Part shown: positions 2,968 to 59,974 of the stretch, in pieces
How positions within the stretch are numbered: position 1 is the first letter of the stretch
How the letters are laid out: each line of letters starts with the position of its first letter
Assembly (NCBI RefSeq): GCF_000208405.1
Contig: NC_015437.1
Span: 434,001-498,000, forward strand
DNA from: Selenomonas sputigena ATCC 35185
GTDB taxonomy: Bacteria; Bacillota; Negativicutes; Selenomonadales; Selenomonadaceae
Reading direction: 5' to 3'
Length of the DNA: 64,000 nt
The notes under the pieces: model-generated
The model's database searches: none
Told to the model about the DNA's origin: nothing
What the model saw: only the letters and a program-made list of their open reading frames with translations
Position numbers and translations under genes: made by a program

Positions 2968-4521
2968 ATGAAGATGATGGTTCGGCGCGTTTTCCCTCGA
3001 AAGAGCGCCCTTTTGGCCGCAGTTTTTGCGGCGTCCTGTCTGCCTTCGGCGGCATTTGCGGAGTATCATTCGTCGACGGATACGGCGGCGGATGTTCTCG
3101 ACTACATCGAAAACGAGCGGCGTGCGGCAAGGGAGAATCGCCTGTCGGAAGCGCAGGAGCAGCTCGTCCGAGATACGGCAGCGATGCAGGCGCATCTGCG
3201 CCAGCCCATGGAAGACCACCTGAAGCCTCTTCCTACGGCTTTCGAGGGCGACGAACTGTTTTATGACCAGGTGACGGGCGAGTTCTTCGCGCGAGGCAGC
3301 GTCAAGATCACGGAGATCGACAACCGCCGCGTGCTTTCCGACGAGATCAAGGGCAATGCTCTCACGCAGGACGTCGCCGTCGAGAACGAGGCGCACATCG
3401 TGCAGGTGACGCCGGACATGGCGCAAGTGGATGTTCGTGGCTGGAAGCTCTCCTACAACTACGGTACGGGCATCGGCAAGATCGAGGACGCTTCGGGAAA
3501 GGTCAACCACCAGTACGTCTCGGGCAAGCGCATCGAGGTCTATCCCGATAAGGTCATCATCCACGAGGGACGCGCGACGAAATGTCATGCGAAGACACCC
3601 GACTACAGCGTGAGCGCCGAGCGCATTGAGATTTATCCGAACGACAAGATTGTCTTCTATAACAGCGACTTCTGGCTCAAGAAGACGCGCGTCGGTCATC
3701 GTGATAAGTATACGGCGGACATCCGACCAGATCATAAGGATATGCCGCCCTTCCCTTCGGTGAGGTACACGAAGTCGGACGGGCTTATCATCGAGCAGGA
3801 TTTCGCGCTTCCTGTGGCGGAGCGTCTGGACTTTATCCCGACGCTCTTGGTATCGACGAAGGAAGGCGTGCATGGCAGGGCGGAACTTCGCTATGGCGGA
3901 CGCTATGGGACGCTGAGCCTGCAGTATGGCTATTGGCAGGATAACGATGACAGGTGGATTCGTCGTGAGCCAAGCCTGCATTACGAGCTCGGCTACCATT
4001 TCAAGGATGCGCCGATCGGCTGGGGAATCGAAGCAGACCACGGACGCTGGTACAACGACGGCATCAAGAGCACGCACACATACGGGAAGATCGGCGTCTA
4101 CCATGATCCGATTCCCTTGGGGAGAGGGGCGTTGCTTTCGTTTGCGGCGGATTATTCCGTGACGAAGGAATCGTATGATCGATCGAGGATCACGGGATTC
4201 AGTTGGTCGGCTACGCTCGTGAAGAAGTTCAGCGACCGGTTGGCGGCCTATGGAAAGTACAGTTACGCACAGGTCTATGCGGGAAATTCGCTCTTCTACT
4301 ACGATGTGGCGGATTACCATCGCGCCCTATACACAGGATTCAGCTATCAGCTGACGGAGCGCGACCGCTTCGTCTGCGGTACGGCGTATGACATCGACCG
4401 CCGCACTTTGGGCGATGTCGACTACTATTGGTATCACGATATGCATTGCGTGCAGCTCGTCACGCGCTATCGTGCGAAACGCGACAGTTGGAGCGTCCGT
4501 TTGAACTTCACGCCGTGGTGA
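2968..4521 (+). CDS. lptD: LptD-like LPS-assembly outer membrane protein (short form)
   Basis: Probable outer-membrane beta-barrel that inserts LPS into the outer leaflet. Start ATG 2968, 7 nt after AGAGG; residues 1-31 form a signal peptide ending AAFA. An OstA/LptA-like beta-jellyroll region spans about 90-260 (GDELFYDQVTGEFFARG, then repeated short strands). After it come alternating hydrophobic/aromatic strands rich in Tyr and Trp to a C-terminal aromatic end (LNFTPW), as in barrels. At 517 residues it is much shorter than the E. coli protein (about 780). No LptE gene or LptD disulfide cysteines are evident. It lies in the LPS heptose operon. A periplasmic OstA protein with a smaller barrel is the alternative. 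Confidence 0.75.
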   Translation: MKMMVRRVFPRKSALLAAVFAASCLPSAAFAEYHSSTDTAADVLDYIENERRAARENRLSEAQEQLVRDTAAMQAHLRQPMEDHLKPLPTAFEGDELFYDQVTGEFFARGSVKITEIDNRRVLSDEIKGNALTQDVAVENEAHIVQVTPDMAQVDVRGWKLSYNYGTGIGKIEDASGKVNHQYVSGKRIEVYPDKVIIHEGRATKCHAKTPDYSVSAERIEIYPNDKIVFYNSDFWLKKTRVGHRDKYTADIRPDHKDMPPFPSVRYTKSDGLIIEQDFALPVAERLDFIPTLLVSTKEGVHGRAELRYGGRYGTLSLQYGYWQDNDDRWIRREPSLHYELGYHFKDAPIGWGIEADHGRWYNDGIKSTHTYGKIGVYHDPIPLGRGALLSFAADYSVTKESYDRSRITGFSWSATLVKKFSDRLAAYGKYSYAQVYAGNSLFYYDVADYHRALYTGFSYQLTERDRFVCGTAYDIDRRTLGDVDYYWYHDMHCVQLVTRYRAKRDSWSVRLNFTPW

Positions 4522-45556: not shown

Positions 45557-45583
45557 TAAGGAAAATGCAGGAAGCGACGATAT
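45557..45583 (+). promoter_or_regulatory. Sigma-28 (SigD/FliA)-type promoter of flagellin
   Basis: TAAG (45557-45560), exactly 15 bases, then GACGATAT (45576-45583), compared with the consensus TAAA-N15-GCCGATAT: one mismatch in each half. Transcription would give a leader of about 115 nt. Confidence 0.75.
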
Positions 45584-45703
45584 AATTGCTGTAAAGTGAT
45601 AGGGAGGTCGGCGGAGACCTCTGGGCATATCAGGGAAGACAGTCGCAGCGTAGGGAAGCGCGTCTCTTTGGCTGTGGCGTCAATGATCAGGGAGGTTTTT
45701 GCT

Positions 45704-47062
45704 GTGCCACTAGTAGTAAAGAACAACATGCAGGCAGCGAATACGCTGAACACGCTGAACAAGAACGAGAAAGACCGTGCGAAGAGCCTTGCACAGGTCT
45801 CATCGGGCATGAAGATCACGAGCGCGGGCGACGATCCTTCGGGCATGTCGATCTCCGAGCGCATGCGCGTGCAGATCCGTGCGCTCGATCAGGACAACCA
45901 GAACACGCAGAACGGCAACAGCATGATGAAGGTCGCCGAGGGCGCTGTCGCCTCGACCGTCGAGATCTTGCGCACGCTCAAGGAGAAGTGCATCAACGCG
46001 GCGAACGACACGAACACCGATGACGACCGCGCGACGATCCAGAAGGAAATGGACGCGATGGTCGACCAGATTAACGACAACGCGAACATTCAGTACAACG
46101 GCAAGATCCTGATGAGCGGCACGTACAACAACCAGGTGTCGGTTGCGGGCGGCACGCAGTCCACATGGGCGAATCAGGCCTTTGCAGAGGGAACGAATCC
46201 GTCGGGTACGGCATTGACCAATTACAAGGATCGTAACGGGAATAGTTTGGGGATTTTGCCAACAGACAGGATGACTGTTTCCTATGTCAAAGATGGCAAG
46301 ACATACGAGAAGACATTCCGCGTCGGAAACTTTAACTTGACGGCTTGTTTTACTAACACTACAAGTGGAACTGGAAAGTTTGTTCCAGATCCAGGCGATA
46401 CGGATTTGGAGGCTTATCAAGGCCCGGCACCTAATGGATTGTCCAAGGTCGGCATTGATCAGTATGGGCATGATGTCGTTACGGCGGACGGCAAGGATGC
46501 TCTGACGATTCGCGCGAAGAATGGCGGCACGACGGGTCAGATTGGCGGCGTGACGTTCTGCTTGACCGATTCACAGGGCAATATCAAGAAGGCACAGAAC
46601 AATATGTTCGACAAGTTCCAGATGACGGTACGCGCCCAAGATCCGACACCCGACAATGCCATGGTCTTCCAGATCGGCACGCGCTCGAATCAGGCGGTCA
46701 AGGTTGGCTTCACCGATATGCACGCGAAGGCGCTCGGCATGATGGGGTCCGACTCGAAGGCGATTCAGGTCACGACGCGTGCACGCGCCAATGCGGCGGT
46801 CAATGTCATTGAGAACGCCATCGGCATGTGTCTCGACCAGCAGACGGTGCTCGGTGCGGCGCAGGCTCGCCTGCAGTTCACGTCGTCGAACATCATCACG
46901 GCGAGCGAGAACACGCAGTATGCCGAGTCGACGATTCGCGACGCCGATATGGCGAAGGCGATGACGGACTACACGAAGAGCAATATCCTCACGCAGACAG
47001 CGCAGGCTATGCTCGCACAGGCGAACCAGTCGTCGAGCGGCGTGCTGAGCTTGCTACAGTAA
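45704..47062 (+). CDS. Flagellin (long form, 452 aa)
   Basis: Structural protein of the flagellar filament, exported by the flagellar type III system. Conserved helical ends: an N-terminal region (LVVKNNMQAANTLNTLNKNE, then AQVSSGMKITSAGDDPSGMS) and a C-terminal D0 end (QAMLAQANQSSSGVLSLLQ). About 180 residues of variable surface domain lie in between. The start is GTG 45704: GGGAGG is 8 nt upstream, and the translated region before it is not flagellin-like. Driven by the sigma-28 promoter above. It may be co-transcribed with the giant exoprotein gene behind it. Confidence 0.95.
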   Translation: MPLVVKNNMQAANTLNTLNKNEKDRAKSLAQVSSGMKITSAGDDPSGMSISERMRVQIRALDQDNQNTQNGNSMMKVAEGAVASTVEILRTLKEKCINAANDTNTDDDRATIQKEMDAMVDQINDNANIQYNGKILMSGTYNNQVSVAGGTQSTWANQAFAEGTNPSGTALTNYKDRNGNSLGILPTDRMTVSYVKDGKTYEKTFRVGNFNLTACFTNTTSGTGKFVPDPGDTDLEAYQGPAPNGLSKVGIDQYGHDVVTADGKDALTIRAKNGGTTGQIGGVTFCLTDSQGNIKKAQNNMFDKFQMTVRAQDPTPDNAMVFQIGTRSNQAVKVGFTDMHAKALGMMGSDSKAIQVTTRARANAAVNVIENAIGMCLDQQTVLGAAQARLQFTSSNIITASENTQYAESTIRDADMAKAMTDYTKSNILTQTAQAMLAQANQSSSGVLSLLQ

Positions 47063-47121
47063 GATACAGGTGGCTTTTGCCGCCTCAATGCCCTGCCGAG
47101 GCAGGAGTCGAGAAGGAAAGA

Positions 47122-47151
47122 AAGCCACCACATCTTGTGGTGGCTTCTCTT
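47122..47151 (+). terminator. Hairpin between flagellin and the giant exoprotein gene
   Basis: AAGCCACCAC-ATCTT-GTGGTGGCTT (47122-47146), a perfect 10-bp stem, followed by CTCTT. It is a weak or partial terminator because the T tract is short. It ends about 22 nt before the next start. Confidence 0.65.
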
Positions 47152-47173
47152 GCGATAGAAAGGAAGATAAGAA

Positions 47174-50100
47174 ATGAGAGGAATGAGCAAGAAGGACGCC
47201 TTGGCGTGTCAGGTCAGCCTCGGTCTCTTTGCCGGCCTCCTCGGCATTGCCTCGACGGCGCATGGTGCGCCGATCCATGACGGTGGCACGCTTGCCGCTG
47301 ACGGCAAGAAGGCAGGGAATGTAACGATTGATACGGCGACGGCAAATACGACGAAAATTACGAGTACGCAGTCGAACAACGTCATTGGCTGGAAGGATTT
47401 CTCGATTAAAAGTACGGAAACTGTAGAATTTGACGGCGGTGTGACGACGGGACCGAATGCGAAAAACTACCTCAATATCGTCACGGGCAATGTGACGTCG
47501 CATATCGACGGCAAGATGACGGGCGGCAACAATGTCTATATCGCCAATTCGCATGGCGTGATCTTCGGCAAGGATGCGAGCGTCGATGTCGGCAACCTCT
47601 ATGTGACGACGCAGGATTTGACGGGCGTCGACTATTCGCAGGCGGCGAACAGCAGCAAGATCGGCGCTGGTACTGTCATTGACACGCCAGCAAACGGGAA
47701 GGCGGCTGCATCGGCAAAAGCCGATGTCGTCAGTCTTGTCGATAATGCCTCTGGGAAGAACTTGAAAGCAGATAAGATCGTCCTCGAAGGCAGGAGCGTT
47801 CGCATCATGAACGATGCGAATATTGAGTCGAGCGAGGTATATACGCTTGCCAATACAGATCCGCTGAAGGTGGAGGCTGGCGGCGAGAAGGAAGTGCGTC
47901 CCTATACGGGCTATGTGCATGTCGGTCATACAAATACCGGCATACCGACAGATCCTCTGCCGACCGTAGGATCTGGAGGAAAGTATAAGAACTTGACGCA
48001 GGACAATCTGTACAAGTTGATCGGTTCGGAAGCAGACTTGGATCTCATCGAACTTAACAAAAACTATATGCTGAGTCGGGATATTACCCTCACAGGCACA
48101 CAAAGTCCTATTGGGACATCGGCAACTCCTTTCACAGGCAAATTCGATGGCATGTTCCATACAATCTCGGGTTTGACGCTTGGCGCGGGCACGAGTACAG
48201 AATATACAGGACTATTTGGTACGACGAATGGCGCGACCATTATGAACGTCGGACTGAAGAATGCGAATCTCTCCACTGTTCAATATGGTGGCGGTCTTGT
48301 CGGTCATGCCAAAGGGAACACGGTTATTAGTGCCGTCTATAATGAATCGACGACAAGTATTGGTGCGGGAAGTTATGCAGGCGGCATCGTTGGAATGTTG
48401 GATGGTTCATCATTAGATCATGCCTATAATACTGCGACTGTGACGCAAGGGGGAGGACTGGCTGGAGCTATAACTGGCAATGTCAAGATATATGCTGTTT
48501 ATAATACTGGGACAACTATAGGTGGAGTTTCTGCTGGTGTTTATCAGGTTTTGGACAGTTATGTTGCAGGCAGTTTTATTAAAGACGCATATACTACGAC
48601 TGCCGATTTGACTGCACCAACGACCCAAAATTTTATTTTTAACTCCTATACCAAGAATTCTAGTGGTGAAGCAACCCTTGTTGTGCCTAGCGGTACATCA
48701 ACTGCTAAGAATGCAAAACAGGCCGCCACTTACGAGGGGTGGGACATCTCCGACGAGGGCGGCGCGAATACGACGTGGCGCATCTTCGAAGGTCATTCGA
48801 CGCCGCTTTTGACCGCCTTTATGAAGGGAACGGTGCAGGCGGAGTATTCGTATGCCGATTTTCAGCAGGCGGGTCACGGGCATTCGGACAATATCGCTTC
48901 AGGCTATACGGTGCAGGCGGCGGACAAGCAGACGGACGGCAGCTATGTCGCGCGTGCGGGCAAGGAAAGCAACGACGGCAAGAGCATTAGCCGTGTCTAC
49001 AATGCCGACTATTTGAAGATTGCGAAGAAAAATAACGATGGTTCTTACTCTGCCATCACGGATGTTAATGATGCGGATCTTAAACTCTATGGCGCAGATG
49101 ATCGCTCGCTCGTACATCTTTCCCAAGGTACGGCCGGTGGCGGTCGCCGCAATGCGGGATCCAATGCAGCCTATGATGGAGTCGACGGCAAGGGCGGCCG
49201 CGAGGCTATGCTCTATGGCGAACAGCACGGCTATGATATCGCGGGCGCGAACGTCACGATCGGCAAGCGCAAGGTTATCGGTGATGTTGGCCAGATGGGC
49301 AAAATCCAGCGTGAGTACGACGGCACAGCGAATGCCGGAGATGCGTTCAAAGCAGCGCTCACGGCGGGCAATGTCGTCGTGCGAACCGAAGGGCTCGTCG
49401 ACGGTGACGGCGCAACGATGACCATAAATACCGACGGCGTGACGTTCCGCGAGAAAGGCAACTGGACGTCAGGCGCGGCTCTAAGTCCCAATGCTGGATA
49501 CAACAAGTCGATCTATGTAGACAGCTCCAAGGTGAATTTCGGCGACGCCGATGGTAATTACGAATTTGATGCGACGAAGATCAATGACAAGAATCTCACG
49601 GGTAATATCCTTCAGAAGACGATCAAGGCGAAGCTGACTACGGATACGGGGATCAACAAGACGTATGACGGCACGTCGAAAGTTCTTAAAGCCCAATACC
49701 AGCCCGACCCCAATCTCATCCTAGATTCGTCGACACCGCTTGTCGGGACGAATGATGTGACCTTGAATCAGGCTGACGTCACAGTGAAGTACAAGGACAA
49801 GACGACCAAAGCGGAAGTGGAGAATGCGGGGACTGGGCACGGCGTCGCCTATGAGGGCATCAAACTTAAGAGCACGACCGCTGGGATGACGAAGAACTAC
49901 AAGCTCGTCGATAAGGAGGGCAATGTCCTTTACCGTGAGGCCATTGACGACGATCCGAATGCAGCTGCCGCCGTGACTTCAGGCGGCACGCTCTGGGGCA
50001 CAGGCACGATCGAAAGGCGCAAGCTCGATGCAAGCCACTTCAGCATCACGGGCGCTTCAAAGATCTACGATGGCAAGGACTACCTCCTCGTTGACGGCAC

Positions 50101-53100
50101 GGAGAATAAGGTGGAGGTTGCGGTCAATGAAGATGCCGGCAAGGCTACGGACACCACGCAAAAAGGTCTTGTCGACAAGGACAAGGACAACCTCAAGTTC
50201 ACGATCAGCGCCGCAGATGGCAAGGCATACTACAAGAACGCCAGCAATGCCAATACGAAGGACGTTTACTCAGCTACGAGCCCCAACGGCGCGCAGTTTC
50301 TTTCCTATACCCTTAAAGCGAGCGGCTCGGCGCTCCAAAACTATGCGTTCGACGATGGTGCCACGACGAAAGACCTTACGACTGCAGACACGTATGACAT
50401 CAAGAATGCAGCCGCAATCAAGCCGCGCGAGATCACGGTCGACCTCTTGAAGAAGACGGGCATCGACAAGGTGTATGACGGTAATGAGAACGTCAAAGAT
50501 GAGAACAAGGTCTTCGGCACGAACTTCGGCTACGCCGATGGCACGACGGACAAGACCAAACTCGTCGAAGGCGACGGCGCGGAGATCAAGGCGACGTCTG
50601 CCGTCTACAAGAAGAAGACGAGCGGCTCGGAGGCTGGCGACAAGGACGTCTCGCGCACGGCGGCGGGCAATGTCATCGAGGATGGCAAGGACGTCGAGTA
50701 CAAGATCGAGCTTACGGGTGCGGACGCGACGACGGCTGCGGCTGCAGCGGCGAACTATCGCCTCAAATACAGCGTGGGTACGCAGACGACGAATGGCACC
50801 GTGGGCAGCGCCATCACGATGACGGGCACGGGCAAGATCACGCCGCGCGAGCTTGTGCTGAACAATCTGCCCGAGGTCGTGCGCTCCTACGACAGGACGT
50901 CAAACGTCTACGCTAAGCAGCTCAAAGACAAGGGCTACAACAGCGTCACGTCGGATCTGGGCGAGAACGTGGCTCTGACGCTCGGTGCGGATACGGATGT
51001 CGTCGGCACATATTATGAGAGTGCGGCTGCGGACGCCGAGAAAGCGACGGATGCCAACTACAGGTCGGACGGCACGACGCAGATCTCCGGGAAGCCCGCG
51101 CAGTATACCGTCCGCTACAAGTCTGACTTCAAGCCGACGATCACGGACGGCAACTACGTCCTCAAGGATGCATCGACGAGCACGGGTACGGGCAAGATCA
51201 CGACGTTCGTCGCGAACAGTACGAACTTCAAAATGGATTTCGGCGTGCAGAGCAAGGTGTTTGACGGTACGGCGGCTGCCGGGGATCACAATCAGCTCAG
51301 CAAGCTGGAATTGGATTTCGGCAATGGACAGAAGCTGGATTTCCTCCATACGCCGCAGAAATCGTATGAGCGCATCGGCGAATTCGGGAACGAACATGCC
51401 AATGTGGACAAGGACGGCAACGCCCTTGTCATCGGCGGCACGACGAAGACGGCGTATAGTTTCACCTTCAAGGTGAAGCCCATCCTGGGGACGAACGCTT
51501 CGGACAACTACGATCTCAGCGCCTTGTCGCCGTCTGCCGACGGCTATATCTCCATGACGAAGGCGTTGCATGGCAAGATCGCGCAGAGGAAGCTCCAAGC
51601 GACGCTCGTGAATCCGCAGCATGAGAAGGTCTATGACGGCACGAAGGATGTGACGAACGGCAAGGGCGAGAAGCTTACCGGTTCTTCCATCGTCCTCTTG
51701 GACAACCTCGCGCCGAAGGAACTTGGCGGCACCTATGGCGATGGCAGTGACATCGTCGGGGAGTATGATAATAAGAATGTCCAGTCCAACAAGCATGTCG
51801 TGACCTACAAGCTCAAGATTTCTCCGAATGGATACGAGAACGACTACTACTTCGTGGACAAGAATAATACGGTCGTGACGGAGCTCAAGGGCGAAGGCGT
51901 CATCAAGCCGCGCGAGATCGATGTGGACTTCAACTATGCACGGAAGACCTACGACGGCACGTCGGCTGTAGACAAGAGCGTGCCTCCTTCGGGCACCTGG
52001 GGCTACACGCTCAAGCCGCACGACGAAAGCGCGGATATGCGGACGAAGGTGCAGACCCTGCTCAACAATGAGCATCCGACGCTCAATACGGCGGTGCTCA
52101 CGGGAACCTATGTGGGCGAGAACGGCACGACGCCGCAGAGCGATGCCGGCGAGTACACGGATCGCGTGAAGTATTCGAACATCCAGGCGGCTCTCCAGGA
52201 TTCCAACTACAAGATGGTCTCCGACACGAGAATTGGGTCGGGCAAGATCGACAAGCGCACGTTCAATGCGGCTGATCTCAACCTCGACATCTCTGCCGCA
52301 CGCAAGACCTACGATGGCACGACGCTCGTCAAGAAGGCCGGCGGAAAAGCCGAAGACTATATCACTGGTCTGACGATGAACCTCGGCGGCACGCCGAAGA
52401 CGTACGTCAAGAACACGGACTACTCGCTCAAAAGCGCGACGTATGCCAACCCGAACGTCTCGGCGAACACGGGCACGGGCAGCGTTACCTACACCATCTC
52501 GCTGAAGAAGAGCGACGGCACGAACGGCTCGCTTCTGAACAATTATGAGTTCACGAACCTTCCTACAGGCTATTCGTTCGATGCGGCGAACGGCACGCTC
52601 TCGCGTACGGTGGCGAACGGCACGATCGACAAGCGCAAGGTCTATGCGCATGTCAAGGACGTGTCGAAGATTTACAATGCAGATATCGATGTGCGAGGCG
52701 GAAGCGGCAATGGACATCCGCTCTCGAGCAGCGAGCTTGTGACGTTTGACAACAAGCTCAATGGCACGGCTGTCGATGACACGGGTCTGATCGAGGCGCA
52801 CAAGAGCCTCAATGCCACGACGGCCTCCTATCGCGATAAGACGGCGGGCACGGGCAACAAGACGGTCGACTACACGCTCTCGATCGACTCGGATCCTGCG
52901 ATCGCGGGCAACTACGCATTTCACGACGGCAAGACGGGAGCGGCGGTTCCTGTCAATGGTTCGGGCAAGTACGTCCTCACGACGACGACGAACACGATCA
53001 ATCGCCGCGCCCTCAAGATTCAGACGCAGGCTGGCGTTACGAAGGCGTTCGACAACACGGACGTCGTCAAAGTCGGCAATGCGCCTTCTACGACAGGGCA

Positions 53101-56100
53101 AGGCCTAAGCTTCGTCGGCGGCGACAAGCAGGGCAGCGATACGGTCGATCTCAATACGACGTACACGCGCGTCTACAAGTCGAAGAATGCGACGAAGACC
53201 GCCGCTTCGAAGAAGAATAACATCAAGTACAACAATATCCAGCTCACGGGCGCGGATGCTGCGAACTACTATCTCGCCGACAGCACCGGCAAGGCGCTTG
53301 ACGCCGACACGACACTGGGATTCTTCAAGACGACGGGCGACGGCGAGATCACGCCATTCCAAGTCACGAAGAACAATTTCAAGCTGAAGTTCCGCACGCA
53401 GCCGATCAAGAAGACGTACGACGGCACGGCGAACGTCGGCGTCGGGGATGCGGCGCACAATCAGCCGGCGAGGTGGGAAGACTACATCACGGACAGCTAC
53501 GTCACGGACGGCGGCGGCACGAAGCTCTTCGACATCGATGTCGAGAAGGTCAAGTCGGCGACGTACCGCAATGCCGGAAATACGGCGGATGACAAGAACG
53601 TGGGGCAGAACAAGAAGGTGCTGTTCAACCTCAAGTTCTCGGATGCGGCGCAGAACAACTTCGAGTTCTCCAGCGACTTCTATACGGCGGACGCCGACGG
53701 CAACCAGATGCTCTCCGACGGCACCTACAACCGCTATACGAAGGGCGACATCGAGAAGCGCGTGCTGCAGGCGAATCTCGCTCATGGTACGGACATCCGC
53801 AAGGTCTACGACGGCACGAAGGCGGCGGACAAGTCGAACCTTTCCATTTTGAACTTTGTTGAGGCGGATAAGGACAAGCTGACGACGACAGCGACGTTCG
53901 ATAAGGCGACGGCGACGGTCGACCCGGGTGCAGCGGCGACGAACACGCGCCAGATCACCTACACGGCGACGCTCACAGGCGATGCTGCGGACAACTACGC
54001 CTTCGATACGCTCACAGGCCCTGCGAGCAAGACGCTGACGGCTACGGGAGACATTGAGAGACGCAAGGTCTACGCGAAGGTCACGGGAGCGCGTGAAAAG
54101 ACGTACGACGCCGACACGAAGGTGCTGATCGGCGGCACGGAGCGAGAAGGTGAAGCGCTCGTGAGCTTCGGCAAGAGCGCGGACAATAACAAGGACACGG
54201 GTCTTCTTACGGGCTACGGCACGAATAAGACGACGGCGGCCTATGCGGGCGCCAATGCCGCTGATGCTTCCGATACGGCGAACAAACGCGTGGACTACAC
54301 GCTCAAGATCGACGGCAAGGATGCCGACGGCACGGACTATGCGAACAACTACGTTGTCTATGATGCAGTGAATCCCAATACCGTCGTTTACAACAAAGCG
54401 GCGGGGACGAATCTCGGCCTTACGACGACGAACAACAAGATCGACCGTGCGCCGCTCTATCTGACGGCGACCCATGCCACGAAGCAGTATGACGGCACGA
54501 AGACGGTCAAGAAGCCCGAGACGCTTCTCAACATCACAGGCGGCTGGCAGGGCGGCGAAGGCGGCAATCTGAACCGCACGGGTACAGGAAGCTATACGGC
54601 GGAATATCAGGACGCCAACGTCAACACGAAGGGCGTCGACTACAAGAATGTCAAGATTGTCGGCACGGGGACGAAGCCTGCGAAGGCATCGAACTACTAT
54701 CTGTCGTACAACGGCGCGAAGCTCACGCCGTCGAGCAGCGAGACTTATGCGCTGCACGGTACGGGCGACATCACGAAGCGCCAGCTCACGGGCGGTGCGC
54801 TCAAGGTCGGCTTCAAGACCGATCCGATTCGCAAGTACTATGATGGCACGGCGGACGTCAAATCGCCTGCGCCCAAGACCTATGTCAACAACATTCGGGC
54901 GACGTACAAGGACGAGAACGGTCACGACCAGACAATCGATGTGAAGAACTACACAGTCGAGCGTGCCGACTACCTCGCGAAGTCGGCTGACGTGGCGGCG
55001 AAGGACGTCGGCAAGGGCAAGGACGTCAAGTTCCAGTTCGCCATGAACGACGGCAACTTCGACTACTCGGGTGTCACGGGCGCCACGCTCGGCGCCGACG
55101 GCGTCTACCGCTTCAGCCAGAACTACGACCGCGATGCGGCGGGCGTCGGGCGCGGTGAGATCATCGGCAGGCGCGTGGCTCTGACGCTCCATCTCGTGCA
55201 GAAGGTCTACGACGGCACGAAGGACGTCAAGAACGGCTACTATACGAAAGACGCAAAGACGGGCAAGCTCGTCGAACACAATCCGAACCTCGACTGGAAG
55301 AAGGTCATTACGCTCGACGGCGACGGCAAGATCGGCGGCGACGAGAACAGCGGCTTCGCCCACGGCGAGAAGCTCGACTTCAACGCGACGGGCGAATATA
55401 AGGATGCCAACGCGAACCGCGATCCGCATTACACGGGGGCGATTCAGCCGGCGAACAAGGACGTCACCTACAAGATGCGCCTCAAGGATGCGACGGCGAA
55501 CAAGAACTACACCTTCCAGATCCGCGTCGTTGACGAAGCGGGCAATACGCTGAAGACCGCCACGTCGCAGTCGTTCATCGACCCGCAGACGGGCGAAGGG
55601 CACATGTTCGATGGCCTTGGCAACATCTGGCAGAAGCAGCTGACGCTCACGAAGACGAACGGCTGGGGCAAGAACTACGACGGCAACGCCAATGTCACGG
55701 ACGCCGTAAAGAAGGGGCTGCAGTTCGACGGTGTCGCACAGAGCGACAAGGGGTTCTTCAACTTCAGCGACCCCGCGAATGCGAGAGCCAACACCTTCGC
55801 AGGGAAGCTCTCGGGACGTTACGGCGACCGTGCCGTGGAAGGTTCCTTCCTCGACACACCGGGCAATACGGCTGTCTACAAGCATGTCAAGCGCCCGCAG
55901 GGCAATCTCAACGGTACGCCCGAGGCGCGCGACGTCGAGCTTACGGGTGTCAAGGATGCCCTTGCCAGCCTGCAGACACCCGGTTCCGTCGCAAACAACT
56001 ACTTCTACGACGGCGACAACACCGTTTACGGCACGGGCGTCATCAAGCCTTTGACTCTCGACCTCAAGAAGACGTGGCTGAAGAACGGCGCGGACTTCTC

Positions 56101-59098
56101 CAAGACGTACGACGGAGACCCGCTCGCCAAGATCGGCGGCAAGGCGCTGAGCCCTGAGAACAAGCAGGCCTTCCACGACAAGCTCAAGCTCAGTGTCGAT
56201 CTCGGCACGGGTGAGAAGCCCATCGAGCTCGACTATACGCTGTACGGCGATGAGAAGGGCGACTACGAGGGCTACCGTCCGCACTACGAGAACCTCTCGG
56301 GCGGACATGCGCATCACGGCCAGAGCGACGCCAATGTGAAAAACAGTGCCGATCCGGCGGATACGCTGAACAAAGACATCGTCTACAAGCTCAAGCGCAT
56401 CAACGGCGACAAGGCGTGGGCAAACCAGGCCGAAGGCGCTCGCTACAAGGATTGGGAGCTTTCGGAGAACCCGAGCGGCGCCGATCTCCGCTTGAGCGAC
56501 GCTGCGACCGATACCCATACCGACAACAAGTCGGGACTCAGGGCGGTGATCACGCCGAGGAAGGTCGAGGTGCAGGCGGACGCCTACAGCAAGATCTACG
56601 ACGGCACGTCGTCTCTGACCGCACCTTCCCTGAGCGCCGGCGAATTGGCGAAAAAGCAGCAGGAGCTTCGCTCCAAGCTGCACGTCACGGACAAGGATGC
56701 GGCGAAGATGCTCAAGGACGATGGCATCGACTTCACGGTTGATACAGCTGCCTCGCATTTCCTCAACAAGGACTCGCGCAAGGCCGATGCCGATGTGGCA
56801 AGGGACGGCGCGGGCAACGTGCTCAAAGACGCCAAGGGCAATGTCCTCAAAGACGGCAAACTCGTGGAGTATAGACTCCAGAAGACGGGCGACGCCGTCA
56901 AGCAGGGGAACTATGAGCTGCCGTCGGCGGCACTTCCCTCGGGCGTGCAGACCGACACCGTGCTCGGCACGGGCAGCATCACGCCGCGCATCGTGCGCGT
57001 AGCGTTTGATCCGGCGAGCACGGCTGCGCCGGACAAGATTTACGATGGCACGCAGTATGCCGTCAAGGACGGGAAGATCCACAGCCGCACGTTCAAACTC
57101 GTGGATGCCGTAGGCGATGAAGGTGTCGTCGCTGCAGACGCGGGTGATGTCAAGCTCAATCAGACGCATAACGTCGGCAAGTTCGCCTCGCCGAACGTCA
57201 AGAAGGACAAGAACGGTGTGCAGGCGCAGGACGTCACCTACCATGAGAGCATAGAGCTGACCAATGGCAGGAACAAGGCGGGCAACTATACGCTCGTCAA
57301 GTCCAACCTCAAGGATTCGGCGAAGATCACGCCGCGCCCGATCACGGCGACGCTCAAGCACGAGCCGATCGTCAAAGAGTATGACGGCACGGAAACGGTC
57401 AAGGATTTCGTCCACCGCACGAGCGCGGGCAAGGTCGAGACGACCCTGCAGCGCGAGGGCAACATCAATCTCGTGGACAAGAATGCGAAAGTCACGGGCA
57501 TTTCCGCCCCGGCACAGCCGACTTGGGAGGCCAAGGACAAGGCGAGGGGCATGACGCTGACAAAAGCGGAGTACGACAATAAGAACGTTGGCAAAAACAA
57601 GCACGTGACGTATGACATTGCCATGAACAGCCACAACTACATGCTGGTCGATGCAGCGGGCAGTTCGCTGATGTCGGGTGACCGCAAGGCGCAGATCACG
57701 TCGGACAAGGGCCAGATCGACCGCCGCAAGGTCTTCGTCGGTCTGGGCAAGTCTGCGGACAAGGTCTATGACGGCAATCGCGTCGTGCGCGATGCGCTCG
57801 ACGATTTGAGCTTCACGTACAACGGGACGGGCGTGGAATCGCCACAAAAGGGTCTCGTGGCTGAGGAAGCGCAGAAGGTTAAGAAGGCGCTGCGTGTCTC
57901 CGGCGTCTACACGGACGATGCGGACGCCGCGAAAAACGATTCAGAGGAATACAAGCATCACAAGGTGCGCTATACCTTCGAGAAGGACGAGACGCGAGAT
58001 CCCATCCTAGCGAACTATGAGATCACGACGAAGAATGGCAACAATACAATTGATGATACCAAGGGCATCATCCGCCGCCGCACGCTGAATGTCGTTCCGG
58101 ATTCGCAGGCGACGTATGAGCGCCGGGGCAATGTGAACTACACGGGTCATATCGAGGACGGCTCGAAAGCGGCGAACAGGGGAAGCGACCTGACGCAGGA
58201 AGTCAAGAATGATCTGCAGCGCTTCAACAGCGGCGTCTTTACCTACGGCCCGACTAAGGGATCGGTGGACTATGACACACCCGACTGGAACGAGCTTCAG
58301 GGCTGGTACATGAGGGACGGCAAGAAGACGCTCGCGAGCGGCGCCTACGATAAGAACTATACGCTCAATCCGGTGCCGGCACGGCTCTTCGTCGCACCGC
58401 GCACGGACGGCGTGGATCGCACGCTGCGCCCCGACGGGCAGGTGTACGTCCGTGCAAGCTACGATGAAAACGATACGTTCGGCGCACATCGTGGCTCGGA
58501 CGCCTCGCTCGCCTATACGGGAACGGGGGTCAACTACGGCGGCATGAAGCCGCAGCAGGGCACGAGCACGAATGCCGGCGATGCGGGTATCCGCCAGCAA
58601 GGAACAGGCACGAACATTGGCAGCAGCGCGGGCGTTGGCGGCGCTGCAGTTGCGAACGGCAAGGTGCAGGGCGCGACGGGCGCGGTGAATGAAGCCGCGC
58701 GCGCAGCAGGCGCACAGCCAGGCGCAAGTGTTAAGCCGCAGGGCGCACAGTCGGGCGCAGCTGTCAAGCCGCAGGGCGCAGCGAGTGCTGTCGGTTCTGC
58801 AGGCAGCGCTGTCGGTGCGGGCAATGTCGTCGACCGCGGCCTTGCCGCCGCGGCGGGCATGAGCGTCGGCGCTTCGAGCGATGCTCGCACAGGCGCGAGC
58901 AGCAGTCGGCGGAGCGCGGACTATTCGAGCAGTGCAGGCTCCTATGCGGACGGCTCTTCGAGAGCCGCTGACAGAGGCCTCGCCAATGCCTTGGGCAAGG
59001 GCGTGGGCAGTGCCGGCTACTACAGCGGCAAGGGCTACAGCCATACCAACGATGACGAAGAGGAGGAAATCAAGAAGAAGACGAAGGCGTCGGCATGA
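47174..59098 (+). CDS. Giant secreted exoprotein with TPS haemagglutinin domain and ~23 YDG repeats
   Basis: 3974 residues. A Sec signal peptide ends STAHGA (about 32). Residues 33-250 are a filamentous-haemagglutinin/TPS domain (NNVIGWKDFSI; NVYIANSHGVIFGKDASVDV), as in TpsA proteins secreted by a TpsB outer-membrane pore. Residues 270-500 hold GLUG-like repeats (GLFGTTNG, GGLVGHAKG, AGGIVGMLDG). From about 715 to 3535 run some 23 YDG-type units (K-x-YDGT core) about 120 residues apart. A Gly/Ala/Ser/Gln-rich tail (about 3790-3974) ends with DDEEEEIKKKTKASA. No C-terminal barrel or SLH anchor and no TpsB gene are seen. ATG 47174 or 47183. It probably is a surface fibre or adhesin. Confidence 0.92.
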   Translation: MRGMSKKDALACQVSLGLFAGLLGIASTAHGAPIHDGGTLAADGKKAGNVTIDTATANTTKITSTQSNNVIGWKDFSIKSTETVEFDGGVTTGPNAKNYLNIVTGNVTSHIDGKMTGGNNVYIANSHGVIFGKDASVDVGNLYVTTQDLTGVDYSQAANSSKIGAGTVIDTPANGKAAASAKADVVSLVDNASGKNLKADKIVLEGRSVRIMNDANIESSEVYTLANTDPLKVEAGGEKEVRPYTGYVHVGHTNTGIPTDPLPTVGSGGKYKNLTQDNLYKLIGSEADLDLIELNKNYMLSRDITLTGTQSPIGTSATPFTGKFDGMFHTISGLTLGAGTSTEYTGLFGTTNGATIMNVGLKNANLSTVQYGGGLVGHAKGNTVISAVYNESTTSIGAGSYAGGIVGMLDGSSLDHAYNTATVTQGGGLAGAITGNVKIYAVYNTGTTIGGVSAGVYQVLDSYVAGSFIKDAYTTTADLTAPTTQNFIFNSYTKNSSGEATLVVPSGTSTAKNAKQAATYEGWDISDEGGANTTWRIFEGHSTPLLTAFMKGTVQAEYSYADFQQAGHGHSDNIASGYTVQAADKQTDGSYVARAGKESNDGKSISRVYNADYLKIAKKNNDGSYSAITDVNDADLKLYGADDRSLVHLSQGTAGGGRRNAGSNAAYDGVDGKGGREAMLYGEQHGYDIAGANVTIGKRKVIGDVGQMGKIQREYDGTANAGDAFKAALTAGNVVVRTEGLVDGDGATMTINTDGVTFREKGNWTSGAALSPNAGYNKSIYVDSSKVNFGDADGNYEFDATKINDKNLTGNILQKTIKAKLTTDTGINKTYDGTSKVLKAQYQPDPNLILDSSTPLVGTNDVTLNQADVTVKYKDKTTKAEVENAGTGHGVAYEGIKLKSTTAGMTKNYKLVDKEGNVLYREAIDDDPNAAAAVTSGGTLWGTGTIERRKLDASHFSITGASKIYDGKDYLLVDGTENKVEVAVNEDAGKATDTTQKGLVDKDKDNLKFTISAADGKAYYKNASNANTKDVYSATSPNGAQFLSYTLKASGSALQNYAFDDGATTKDLTTADTYDIKNAAAIKPREITVDLLKKTGIDKVYDGNENVKDENKVFGTNFGYADGTTDKTKLVEGDGAEIKATSAVYKKKTSGSEAGDKDVSRTAAGNVIEDGKDVEYKIELTGADATTAAAAAANYRLKYSVGTQTTNGTVGSAITMTGTGKITPRELVLNNLPEVVRSYDRTSNVYAKQLKDKGYNSVTSDLGENVALTLGADTDVVGTYYESAAADAEKATDANYRSDGTTQISGKPAQYTVRYKSDFKPTITDGNYVLKDASTSTGTGKITTFVANSTNFKMDFGVQSKVFDGTAAAGDHNQLSKLELDFGNGQKLDFLHTPQKSYERIGEFGNEHANVDKDGNALVIGGTTKTAYSFTFKVKPILGTNASDNYDLSALSPSADGYISMTKALHGKIAQRKLQATLVNPQHEKVYDGTKDVTNGKGEKLTGSSIVLLDNLAPKELGGTYGDGSDIVGEYDNKNVQSNKHVVTYKLKISPNGYENDYYFVDKNNTVVTELKGEGVIKPREIDVDFNYARKTYDGTSAVDKSVPPSGTWGYTLKPHDESADMRTKVQTLLNNEHPTLNTAVLTGTYVGENGTTPQSDAGEYTDRVKYSNIQAALQDSNYKMVSDTRIGSGKIDKRTFNAADLNLDISAARKTYDGTTLVKKAGGKAEDYITGLTMNLGGTPKTYVKNTDYSLKSATYANPNVSANTGTGSVTYTISLKKSDGTNGSLLNNYEFTNLPTGYSFDAANGTLSRTVANGTIDKRKVYAHVKDVSKIYNADIDVRGGSGNGHPLSSSELVTFDNKLNGTAVDDTGLIEAHKSLNATTASYRDKTAGTGNKTVDYTLSIDSDPAIAGNYAFHDGKTGAAVPVNGSGKYVLTTTTNTINRRALKIQTQAGVTKAFDNTDVVKVGNAPSTTGQGLSFVGGDKQGSDTVDLNTTYTRVYKSKNATKTAASKKNNIKYNNIQLTGADAANYYLADSTGKALDADTTLGFFKTTGDGEITPFQVTKNNFKLKFRTQPIKKTYDGTANVGVGDAAHNQPARWEDYITDSYVTDGGGTKLFDIDVEKVKSATYRNAGNTADDKNVGQNKKVLFNLKFSDAAQNNFEFSSDFYTADADGNQMLSDGTYNRYTKGDIEKRVLQANLAHGTDIRKVYDGTKAADKSNLSILNFVEADKDKLTTTATFDKATATVDPGAAATNTRQITYTATLTGDAADNYAFDTLTGPASKTLTATGDIERRKVYAKVTGAREKTYDADTKVLIGGTEREGEALVSFGKSADNNKDTGLLTGYGTNKTTAAYAGANAADASDTANKRVDYTLKIDGKDADGTDYANNYVVYDAVNPNTVVYNKAAGTNLGLTTTNNKIDRAPLYLTATHATKQYDGTKTVKKPETLLNITGGWQGGEGGNLNRTGTGSYTAEYQDANVNTKGVDYKNVKIVGTGTKPAKASNYYLSYNGAKLTPSSSETYALHGTGDITKRQLTGGALKVGFKTDPIRKYYDGTADVKSPAPKTYVNNIRATYKDENGHDQTIDVKNYTVERADYLAKSADVAAKDVGKGKDVKFQFAMNDGNFDYSGVTGATLGADGVYRFSQNYDRDAAGVGRGEIIGRRVALTLHLVQKVYDGTKDVKNGYYTKDAKTGKLVEHNPNLDWKKVITLDGDGKIGGDENSGFAHGEKLDFNATGEYKDANANRDPHYTGAIQPANKDVTYKMRLKDATANKNYTFQIRVVDEAGNTLKTATSQSFIDPQTGEGHMFDGLGNIWQKQLTLTKTNGWGKNYDGNANVTDAVKKGLQFDGVAQSDKGFFNFSDPANARANTFAGKLSGRYGDRAVEGSFLDTPGNTAVYKHVKRPQGNLNGTPEARDVELTGVKDALASLQTPGSVANNYFYDGDNTVYGTGVIKPLTLDLKKTWLKNGADFSKTYDGDPLAKIGGKALSPENKQAFHDKLKLSVDLGTGEKPIELDYTLYGDEKGDYEGYRPHYENLSGGHAHHGQSDANVKNSADPADTLNKDIVYKLKRINGDKAWANQAEGARYKDWELSENPSGADLRLSDAATDTHTDNKSGLRAVITPRKVEVQADAYSKIYDGTSSLTAPSLSAGELAKKQQELRSKLHVTDKDAAKMLKDDGIDFTVDTAASHFLNKDSRKADADVARDGAGNVLKDAKGNVLKDGKLVEYRLQKTGDAVKQGNYELPSAALPSGVQTDTVLGTGSITPRIVRVAFDPASTAAPDKIYDGTQYAVKDGKIHSRTFKLVDAVGDEGVVAADAGDVKLNQTHNVGKFASPNVKKDKNGVQAQDVTYHESIELTNGRNKAGNYTLVKSNLKDSAKITPRPITATLKHEPIVKEYDGTETVKDFVHRTSAGKVETTLQREGNINLVDKNAKVTGISAPAQPTWEAKDKARGMTLTKAEYDNKNVGKNKHVTYDIAMNSHNYMLVDAAGSSLMSGDRKAQITSDKGQIDRRKVFVGLGKSADKVYDGNRVVRDALDDLSFTYNGTGVESPQKGLVAEEAQKVKKALRVSGVYTDDADAAKNDSEEYKHHKVRYTFEKDETRDPILANYEITTKNGNNTIDDTKGIIRRRTLNVVPDSQATYERRGNVNYTGHIEDGSKAANRGSDLTQEVKNDLQRFNSGVFTYGPTKGSVDYDTPDWNELQGWYMRDGKKTLASGAYDKNYTLNPVPARLFVAPRTDGVDRTLRPDGQVYVRASYDENDTFGAHRGSDASLAYTGTGVNYGGMKPQQGTSTNAGDAGIRQQGTGTNIGSSAGVGGAAVANGKVQGATGAVNEAARAAGAQPGASVKPQGAQSGAAVKPQGAASAVGSAGSAVGAGNVVDRGLAAAAGMSVGASSDARTGASSSRRSADYSSSAGSYADGSSRAADRGLANALGKGVGSAGYYSGKGYSHTNDDEEEEIKKKTKASA
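49317..57770 (+). repeat. Array of ~23 YDG-type protein repeats
   Basis: Units are recognised by the core [KR]-x-[YF]-[DN]-[GNRA]-[TNKDA], for example KTYDGTANV at 53413 and KVYDGTKDV at 55204. Four or five units are degenerate (KIYNADIDV, KAFDNTDVV, KTYDADTKV, RSYDRTSNV). Unit spacing averages about 367 bp. DNA identity between units is partial, so they were copied long ago or diversified. Confidence 0.8.
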
Positions 59099-59324: not shown

Positions 59325-59558
59325 ATGAATGCATTACGTCAAGAGGCATTTCGTATGATGGAATCCATGCCCGACGAGGGAATAGCGGATCTGATCCAAT
59401 ACATGAATGAATATCATCGCAAATTCGCCGCGCGGGAGCAACGGCAATATGATGCTCGTGAGAAGGCCTTCACCGTCTTGGAGAGCATGAAGCGCAAGGT
59501 TCCCGAGTTGGATTATGCTAGAGAACTTGCAGAATACAGGGAGGAGAAGTATCTTTGA
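59325..59558 (+). CDS. Putative antitoxin of a VapBC-like pair
   Basis: 77 residues, mostly helical and charged, beginning MNALRQEAFRMMESMPDEG. No AbrB or ribbon-helix-helix motif is obvious, but size, position and overlap (TGATG) with a PIN gene fit an antitoxin. ATG 59325 is preferred to GTG 59316, since GAAGGGAG ends at the GTG. An extended -10 lies about 30 bp upstream. Confidence 0.7.
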   Translation: MNALRQEAFRMMESMPDEGIADLIQYMNEYHRKFAAREQRQYDAREKAFTVLESMKRKVPELDYARELAEYREEKYL

Positions 59559-59974
59559 TGCGGATCTTGCTGGACACGAACCTTTTGCTTGATTATTTAA
59601 CGGAGCGAGAACCTTTTTACCAGGCGGCATATCGAATTGTGTTAGGATGCAAAAATCGCGACTATGAGGGGATTGTGGCGGCTCATTCCATTGTGGATAT
59701 GTTTTATATCCTTCGAAAGCATTTTACAAATTCGGAACGGCGCAAGCTTCTGTTGGCTTTTTTTGAAATTTTGCAAGTAGAGGCTGTTGATGGAGAGAAG
59801 TTGTGCACAGCTTTGAAAAATGGGATGTTTGCTGACTTTGAGGATTGCTTGCAAGTCGAGTGTGCCAAATCTGCGGCTGCTGACTTCATCATAACACGCA
59901 ATGCCAAAGATTATGCTCTGAGTGATGTACCAATCTTGTCGCCAGAACAGTTCGTAGAGAAATTTGGCGGATGA
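59558..59974 (+). CDS. PIN-domain toxin (VapC-like ribonuclease)
   Basis: 138 residues. The PIN metal site includes the N-terminal LLDTNLLLDY (Asp6), a mid-protein Glu/Asp region DFEDCLQVECAK, and ADFIITRNAKDY near the end. Such proteins cut RNA when freed from the antitoxin. ATG 59558 overlaps the antitoxin stop. Confidence 0.87.
   Translation: MRILLDTNLLLDYLTEREPFYQAAYRIVLGCKNRDYEGIVAAHSIVDMFYILRKHFTNSERRKLLLAFFEILQVEAVDGEKLCTALKNGMFADFEDCLQVECAKSAAADFIITRNAKDYALSDVPILSPEQFVEKFGG

Follow-up and report, generated by a model that had tools for sequence, protein, structure and literature searches.

The window analysed here, 64 kb of the Selenomonas sputigena ATCC 35185 genome (positions 434001-498000), carries one very large gene that has a flagellin gene on either side (Table 1). 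Its frame begins with an ATG immediately preceded by a Shine-Dalgarno-like purine stretch and contains zero internal stops, and the long antisense frames lying within it look like overlap artefacts. The product is a giant exoprotein of the TpsA type. A PIN-domain ORF (59555-59974) lies between this gene and the short flagellin gene, 457 bases downstream of the giant. The flagellins of the genome are found at 352, 480 and 494 kb, a spacing that fits the flagellin-like genes SELSP_0329, 0429 and 0433 named in PMC13339959. An Rfam scan of the 64-kb window gave no match.

Table 1. Features of the giant tpsA locus (positions in the window)
Feature	Position	Strand	Evidence
Sigma-28-like promoter, TAAG-N15-GACGATA, 5' of flagellin	45557..45582	+	Pattern search
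Flagellin (Flagellin_N + Flagellin_C), probable true start GTG ~45704	45596..47062	+	Pfam: PF00669, E 1.4e-30; PF00700, E 9.8e-20
Stem-loops in the flagellin-tpsA gap	47067..47147	+	RNA fold of 47060-47180, z -3.9
Giant TpsA exoprotein gene, 3974 aa	47174..59098	+	ORF, Pfam and NCBIfam domains
Signal peptide, residues 1-32, likely cleavage after AHGA	47174..47269	+	Sequence reading by eye
TPS secretion domain, residues 42-206	47297..47791	+	Pfam, AlphaFold model, profile against PDB
GLUG-like repeats, about residues 300-500	48071..48673	+	By eye only
23 tandem YDG units, residues 689-3632	49238..58069	+	Iterated profile search
Conserved terminal module, residues 3640-3795	58091..58558	+	Profile from other genera, E 6e-7
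Tail rich in Ser/Gly/Ala, specific to the genus, acidic-basic at its end, residues 3796-3974	58559..59095	+	Comparison with congener and other genera
Second, short flagellin, 278 aa	60047..60883	-	Flagellin_N, E 3.7e-16; Flagellin_C, E 5.6e-8

The N-terminal segment contains a putative Sec signal that is clear by eye and is kept in 18 orthologues. It is followed by the two-partner secretion (TPS) domain that an earlier note on this DNA had proposed, recognized by Pfam (PF05860, E 1.4e-12) and, as a filamentous-haemagglutinin N-terminal domain, by NCBIfam (TIGR01901, E 3e-14). The GLUG-like repeats of the same note can be seen by eye but did not prove significant, no Pfam match in that stretch reaching E 1. 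Its count of about 23 YDG repeats was accurate: nine stretches exceed the Pfam threshold for PF18657 (E 1.3e-18), and a profile trained on units of the same genome and then iterated on relatives delimits exactly 23 contiguous units of ~128 aa each. The low-complexity tail, which ends in DDEEEEIKKKTKASA, is composed as the note described and has no anchor domain known to Pfam; for the giant, Pfam detected no C-terminal beta-barrel, SLH or sortase anchor at E <= 1.

The AlphaFold model of the TPS domain (pLDDT 75.5) retrieved only TPS domains as top matches in Foldseek, including those of EtpA, HxuA, HpmA and FHA, with a probability of 1.00 and modest TM-scores of about 0.4. When the TPS-domain profile was compared with PDB sequences the best match was EtpA (E 1.4e-21). 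Since TPS domains are all alike, this match supports secretion by the TPS route and says little on flagellin binding. The YDG unit found no sequence match in the PDB, and its model (pLDDT 84) found no structural match by Foldseek.

Part of the tail is shared between genera, its end alone being genus-specific. A profile built from the tails of other genera matches residues ~3529-3825 of the giant (E 6e-7), with tail-less and reversed control sequences negative; this tail-only profile was used because one of the whole C-terminus is uninformative, containing YDG units. The module so defined consists of the last repeat-like unit and the motif PD...Y.R.S.D...Y...GVN. The last ~170 residues vary among genera, and in many relatives the giant finishes with an acidic-basic stretch and then an I.IE..G..VNL strand. 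Between S. sputigena and its congener these last ~170 residues are 87% identical and the N-terminal 400 residues 57-66%, whereas identity falls to 28-44% over the bulk of the YDG array, with one stretch at 72%; flagellin is 91% identical between the two species. This comparison indicates that the array evolves very fast while both ends are kept, as is expected of an exposed adhesin.

No TpsB gene was found anywhere in the 64-kb window, in agreement with the earlier note, which saw none within 12 kb. Its description of the giant as having no visible secretion partner does not hold for the genome (2,568,361 bases, single contig), in which the search for FhaC/TpsB-like genes that it had recommended revealed five TpsB genes together with four TPS-domain genes. 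Three of the five adjoin their own TpsA (89/91 kb, 664/669 kb and 1176/1177 kb), and the TpsB at 1078 kb adjoins a CdiA-like haemagglutinin-repeat gene without a TPS domain, beside an IS200-like transposase. The TpsA at 91 kb is composed of a TPS frame (687 aa) overlapping a second long frame (1834+ aa), which suggests a frameshift or a phase-variable site. The remaining TpsB gene (genome 589167-590807) is the sole one without an exoprotein neighbour and is placed 96 kb from the giant, between genes that we named by eye as purF-like and metG-like. Its product matches PF03865 (POTRA plus barrel) and FhaC (E 9e-15), and is 94% identical to that of the congener. We found neither a tpsB remnant 3' of the giant gene, nor a tpsA remnant next to the orphan tpsB, nor a sigma-28-like site 5' of the latter.

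Orthologues of the N-terminus of the giant in relatives are themselves giants, of about 2000-4800 aa, and in a class-wide search they were confined to Selenomonadaceae, a single further family yielding only a looser relative. An orthologue of the 589 kb TpsB is present in 53 of the 55 genomes that encode such a protein. In 43 of the 55 it is directly downstream of the giant gene (median gap ~116 bp), in five, S. sputigena and its congener included, both genes are on one contig yet apart, in five they are on separate contigs (one of these being a contig break within tpsA), and two have no strong TpsB; the count covers genomes with the giant, fragmentary TpsB-only genomes being excluded, and is uninformative on TpsB without TpsA. 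The named loci of the genome scan agree with the adjacent pattern, and the two genes are separated in Mitsuokella oral taxon 131, S. artemidis, S. sp. F0473, S. massiliensis and Centipeda. Adjacency of tpsA and tpsB is usual but not obligatory in two-partner secretion (PMC5422565); most relatives show it, whereas in S. sputigena the two genes are 96 kb apart.

In a maximum-likelihood tree of TpsB the orphan was placed among the linked TpsB proteins, the paralogous ones being split off by a branch with support 96/100; resolution of the finer order is poor, and a Succiniclasticum row labelled as linked groups with the paralogues. Distances of TpsA and TpsB correlate (r 0.53), a value that we do not count in favour of pairing since any two vertically inherited genes would correlate. 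As the orphan is orthologous to the TpsB found beside the giants of relatives, the giant does not lack a partner; only its tpsB is separated, and this relocation accounts for the apparently partnerless TpsA. Judging from these sequence relationships, the giant is very probably paired with the 589 kb TpsB for export.

The feature that now gives interest to this gene, and which was absent from the earlier note, is its conserved linkage to flagellin and late flagellar genes. A flagellin gene is found no more than 1.5 kb upstream of the giant tpsA in 36 of 39 loci, and farther upstream in the other three, while the loci of other TPS proteins showed no such linkage (0/16). The order flagellin-tpsA-tpsB is conserved in dozens of related genomes. 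In S. ruminantium GACV-9 it continues into the late flagellar genes, the Pfam assignments reading flagellin-tpsA-tpsB-flgM-flgN-flgN-like-flgK-flgL-fliW-fliD-fliS. One Selenomonas genome has four tandem flagellin genes upstream of the giant. The giant is absent from all eight flagellin-negative genomes, which would happen by chance with a probability of ~0.013 (about 1 in 80), a figure weakened by incomplete assemblies. It is also missing in about half of the sampled genomes of the family, most of them flagellin-positive, and flagella therefore do not need it. Among open-licence papers we found none on a linkage of flagellin and TPS in Selenomonas or Negativicutes.

The sigma-28-like site before the upstream flagellin is the only match in the window, on both strands, to TAA[AG]N14-16[GA][CA]CGATA, a pattern that is partly post hoc, a first one having been matchless and this second one chosen after viewing the sequence upstream of flagellin. 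Similar sites precede another flagellin gene of this genome, at 352 kb, as well as four flagellins of relatives. The gap of 111 bases between flagellin and tpsA contains strong stem-loops that are nearly identical in the congener and could be a terminator or an attenuator. No sigma-70-like promoter was found in this gap of the window, while in several relatives a sigma-70-like sequence was seen by eye immediately before tpsA. Read-through from flagellin into tpsA may occur, but the stem-loops in the window and the sigma-70-like sequences in relatives make co-transcription uncertain.

By mechanism the giant is best read as an ordinary two-partner (type Vb) exoprotein and, from the gene order, as belonging to a TPS locus that in Selenomonadaceae is linked to the flagellum. 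The explanation that we consider best, and rather probable, is that it is a flagellum-linked type Vb TpsA with an unlinked transporter, acting as an adhesin made together with flagella. We infer export by the 589 kb TpsB, a surface location, adhesion and flagellar contact as follows. The protein would cross the inner membrane via Sec and the outer membrane through the FhaC-like TpsB, and folding at the surface would begin at the TPS domain. The 23 YDG units, which diverge fast, would then make up a long stalk or an array for display, capped or retained by the conserved C-terminal end. Ancestrally, tpsA and tpsB would have been neighbours right behind flagellin, in some species within the flagellar late-gene cluster; in the genus of S. 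sputigena tpsB would have been relocated and tpsA kept beside flagellin. The likeliest job is that of an adhesin produced with the flagella and perhaps acting together with them, like EtpA of enterotoxigenic E. coli.

Gene linkage can outlast or lack a physical interaction, so that synteny raises the prior for a contact with flagella, and shared regulation would explain the linkage too. On synteny, we regard a functional coupling of the giant to flagella as an evenly balanced question, and physical binding to the flagellar filament as rather unlikely. The reading of a dedicated flagellum-coupled TPS of Selenomonadaceae, in which the fast-evolving YDG giant would be made with the filament and, placed on it or at its base, would serve as an adhesin or as a component resembling a sheath, is put forward tentatively.

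The alternative that fares best, with a little less than an even chance in our estimate, is an ordinary TPS surface adhesin, or a protein of the biofilm matrix, of the kind of CdrA or FHA and without flagellar contact, the position beside flagellin reflecting inherited synteny or shared regulation. A TPS domain followed by repeats is an architecture typical of adhesins, and the promoter-like sequences before tpsA in several relatives also fit. The TPS biofilm adhesin CdrA, with its partner CdrB, of Pseudomonas aeruginosa is a case in point; to our knowledge it has no flagellar-cluster location and no YDG array. FleQ controls flagella. It also regulates the biofilm adhesin operon cdrAB (PMC5422565). 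This alternative does not, however, explain well why the linkage to flagellin was kept over many genera, in some of them inside the late flagellar cluster, when the other TPS loci tested lack it.

In our preferred reading the giant is likely an adhesin that resembles EtpA and is associated with flagella or with the cell surface. EtpA, also a TPS exoprotein with a TpsB (EtpB), and the nearest solved structure to the TPS profile of the giant, is an adhesin that binds the conserved N-terminus of FliC at flagellar tips and bridges flagella to host glycans (PMC4009794, PMC10284417). Unlike EtpA, which has four beta-helical repeats of 228 residues, the giant has YDG units, is about twice as long and is encoded beside flagellin. 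We know of no linkage of etpA/etpB to flagellin. FhaB/FhaC of Bordetella resembles the present system in its TPS domain, FhaC-like transporter and giant adhesin, but differs in the type of repeats; the giant, moreover, has the flagellin linkage and no identified FHA-type C-terminal prodomain.

EtpA is a precedent for a TPS adhesin that works through flagella, and here a TPS pair is found in or beside the filament genes throughout a family of mouth and rumen bacteria, which makes a link between flagella and the giant adhesin, physical or regulatory, directly testable. Oral S. sputigena becomes non-motile and forms biofilm structures together with streptococci by a mechanism reported as unknown (PMC10202936), and the flagellin-linked giant may bear on both.

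It is improbable that the giant is exported by the 669 kb TpsB and that the orphan serves other cargo. That TpsB is the adjacent partner of the YDG exoprotein at 664370-668962 (TpsB at 669175), which shares the TPS and YDG architecture and has the TPS domain nearest to that of the giant within the genome, but is of 1530 aa with 8 YDG units, a different tail and no flagellin linkage. Certain TpsB proteins do export more than one TpsA (PMC5422565) and the orphan and the 669 kb TpsB share 42.5% identity; the gene found beside the giant in relatives is, however, orthologous to the orphan and not to the 669 kb gene. That the giant is an orphan in the strict sense, secreted or anchored in a novel way, is suggested by a window without TpsB and a tail without known anchor, but is very improbable given a TpsB orthologue that is elsewhere in this genome and directly adjacent to the giant in 43 relatives, and a terminal module that relatives have too. 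The undescribed surface system of the earlier note is thus not sustained, the TpsB elsewhere and the homologous part of the tail leaving no undescribed system of secretion or anchoring.

A CdiA-like effector of contact-dependent inhibition with a toxic tail, to which TPS secretion, large size and a conserved end might point, is hardly credible for a protein whose low-complexity tail has no Pfam toxin domain and is conserved between species rather than polymorphic at its end, and whose next downstream gene is the PIN-domain ORF 457 bases away; Pfam scans of the giant and its neighbours detected no haemagglutinin (CdiA-type) repeats, toxin C-terminus or immunity gene. The contact-inhibition and autotransporter readings were both rejected on domain content. 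At genome 1083 kb, beside the TpsB described above, a CdiA-like frame marks what is apparently a broken contact-inhibition locus.
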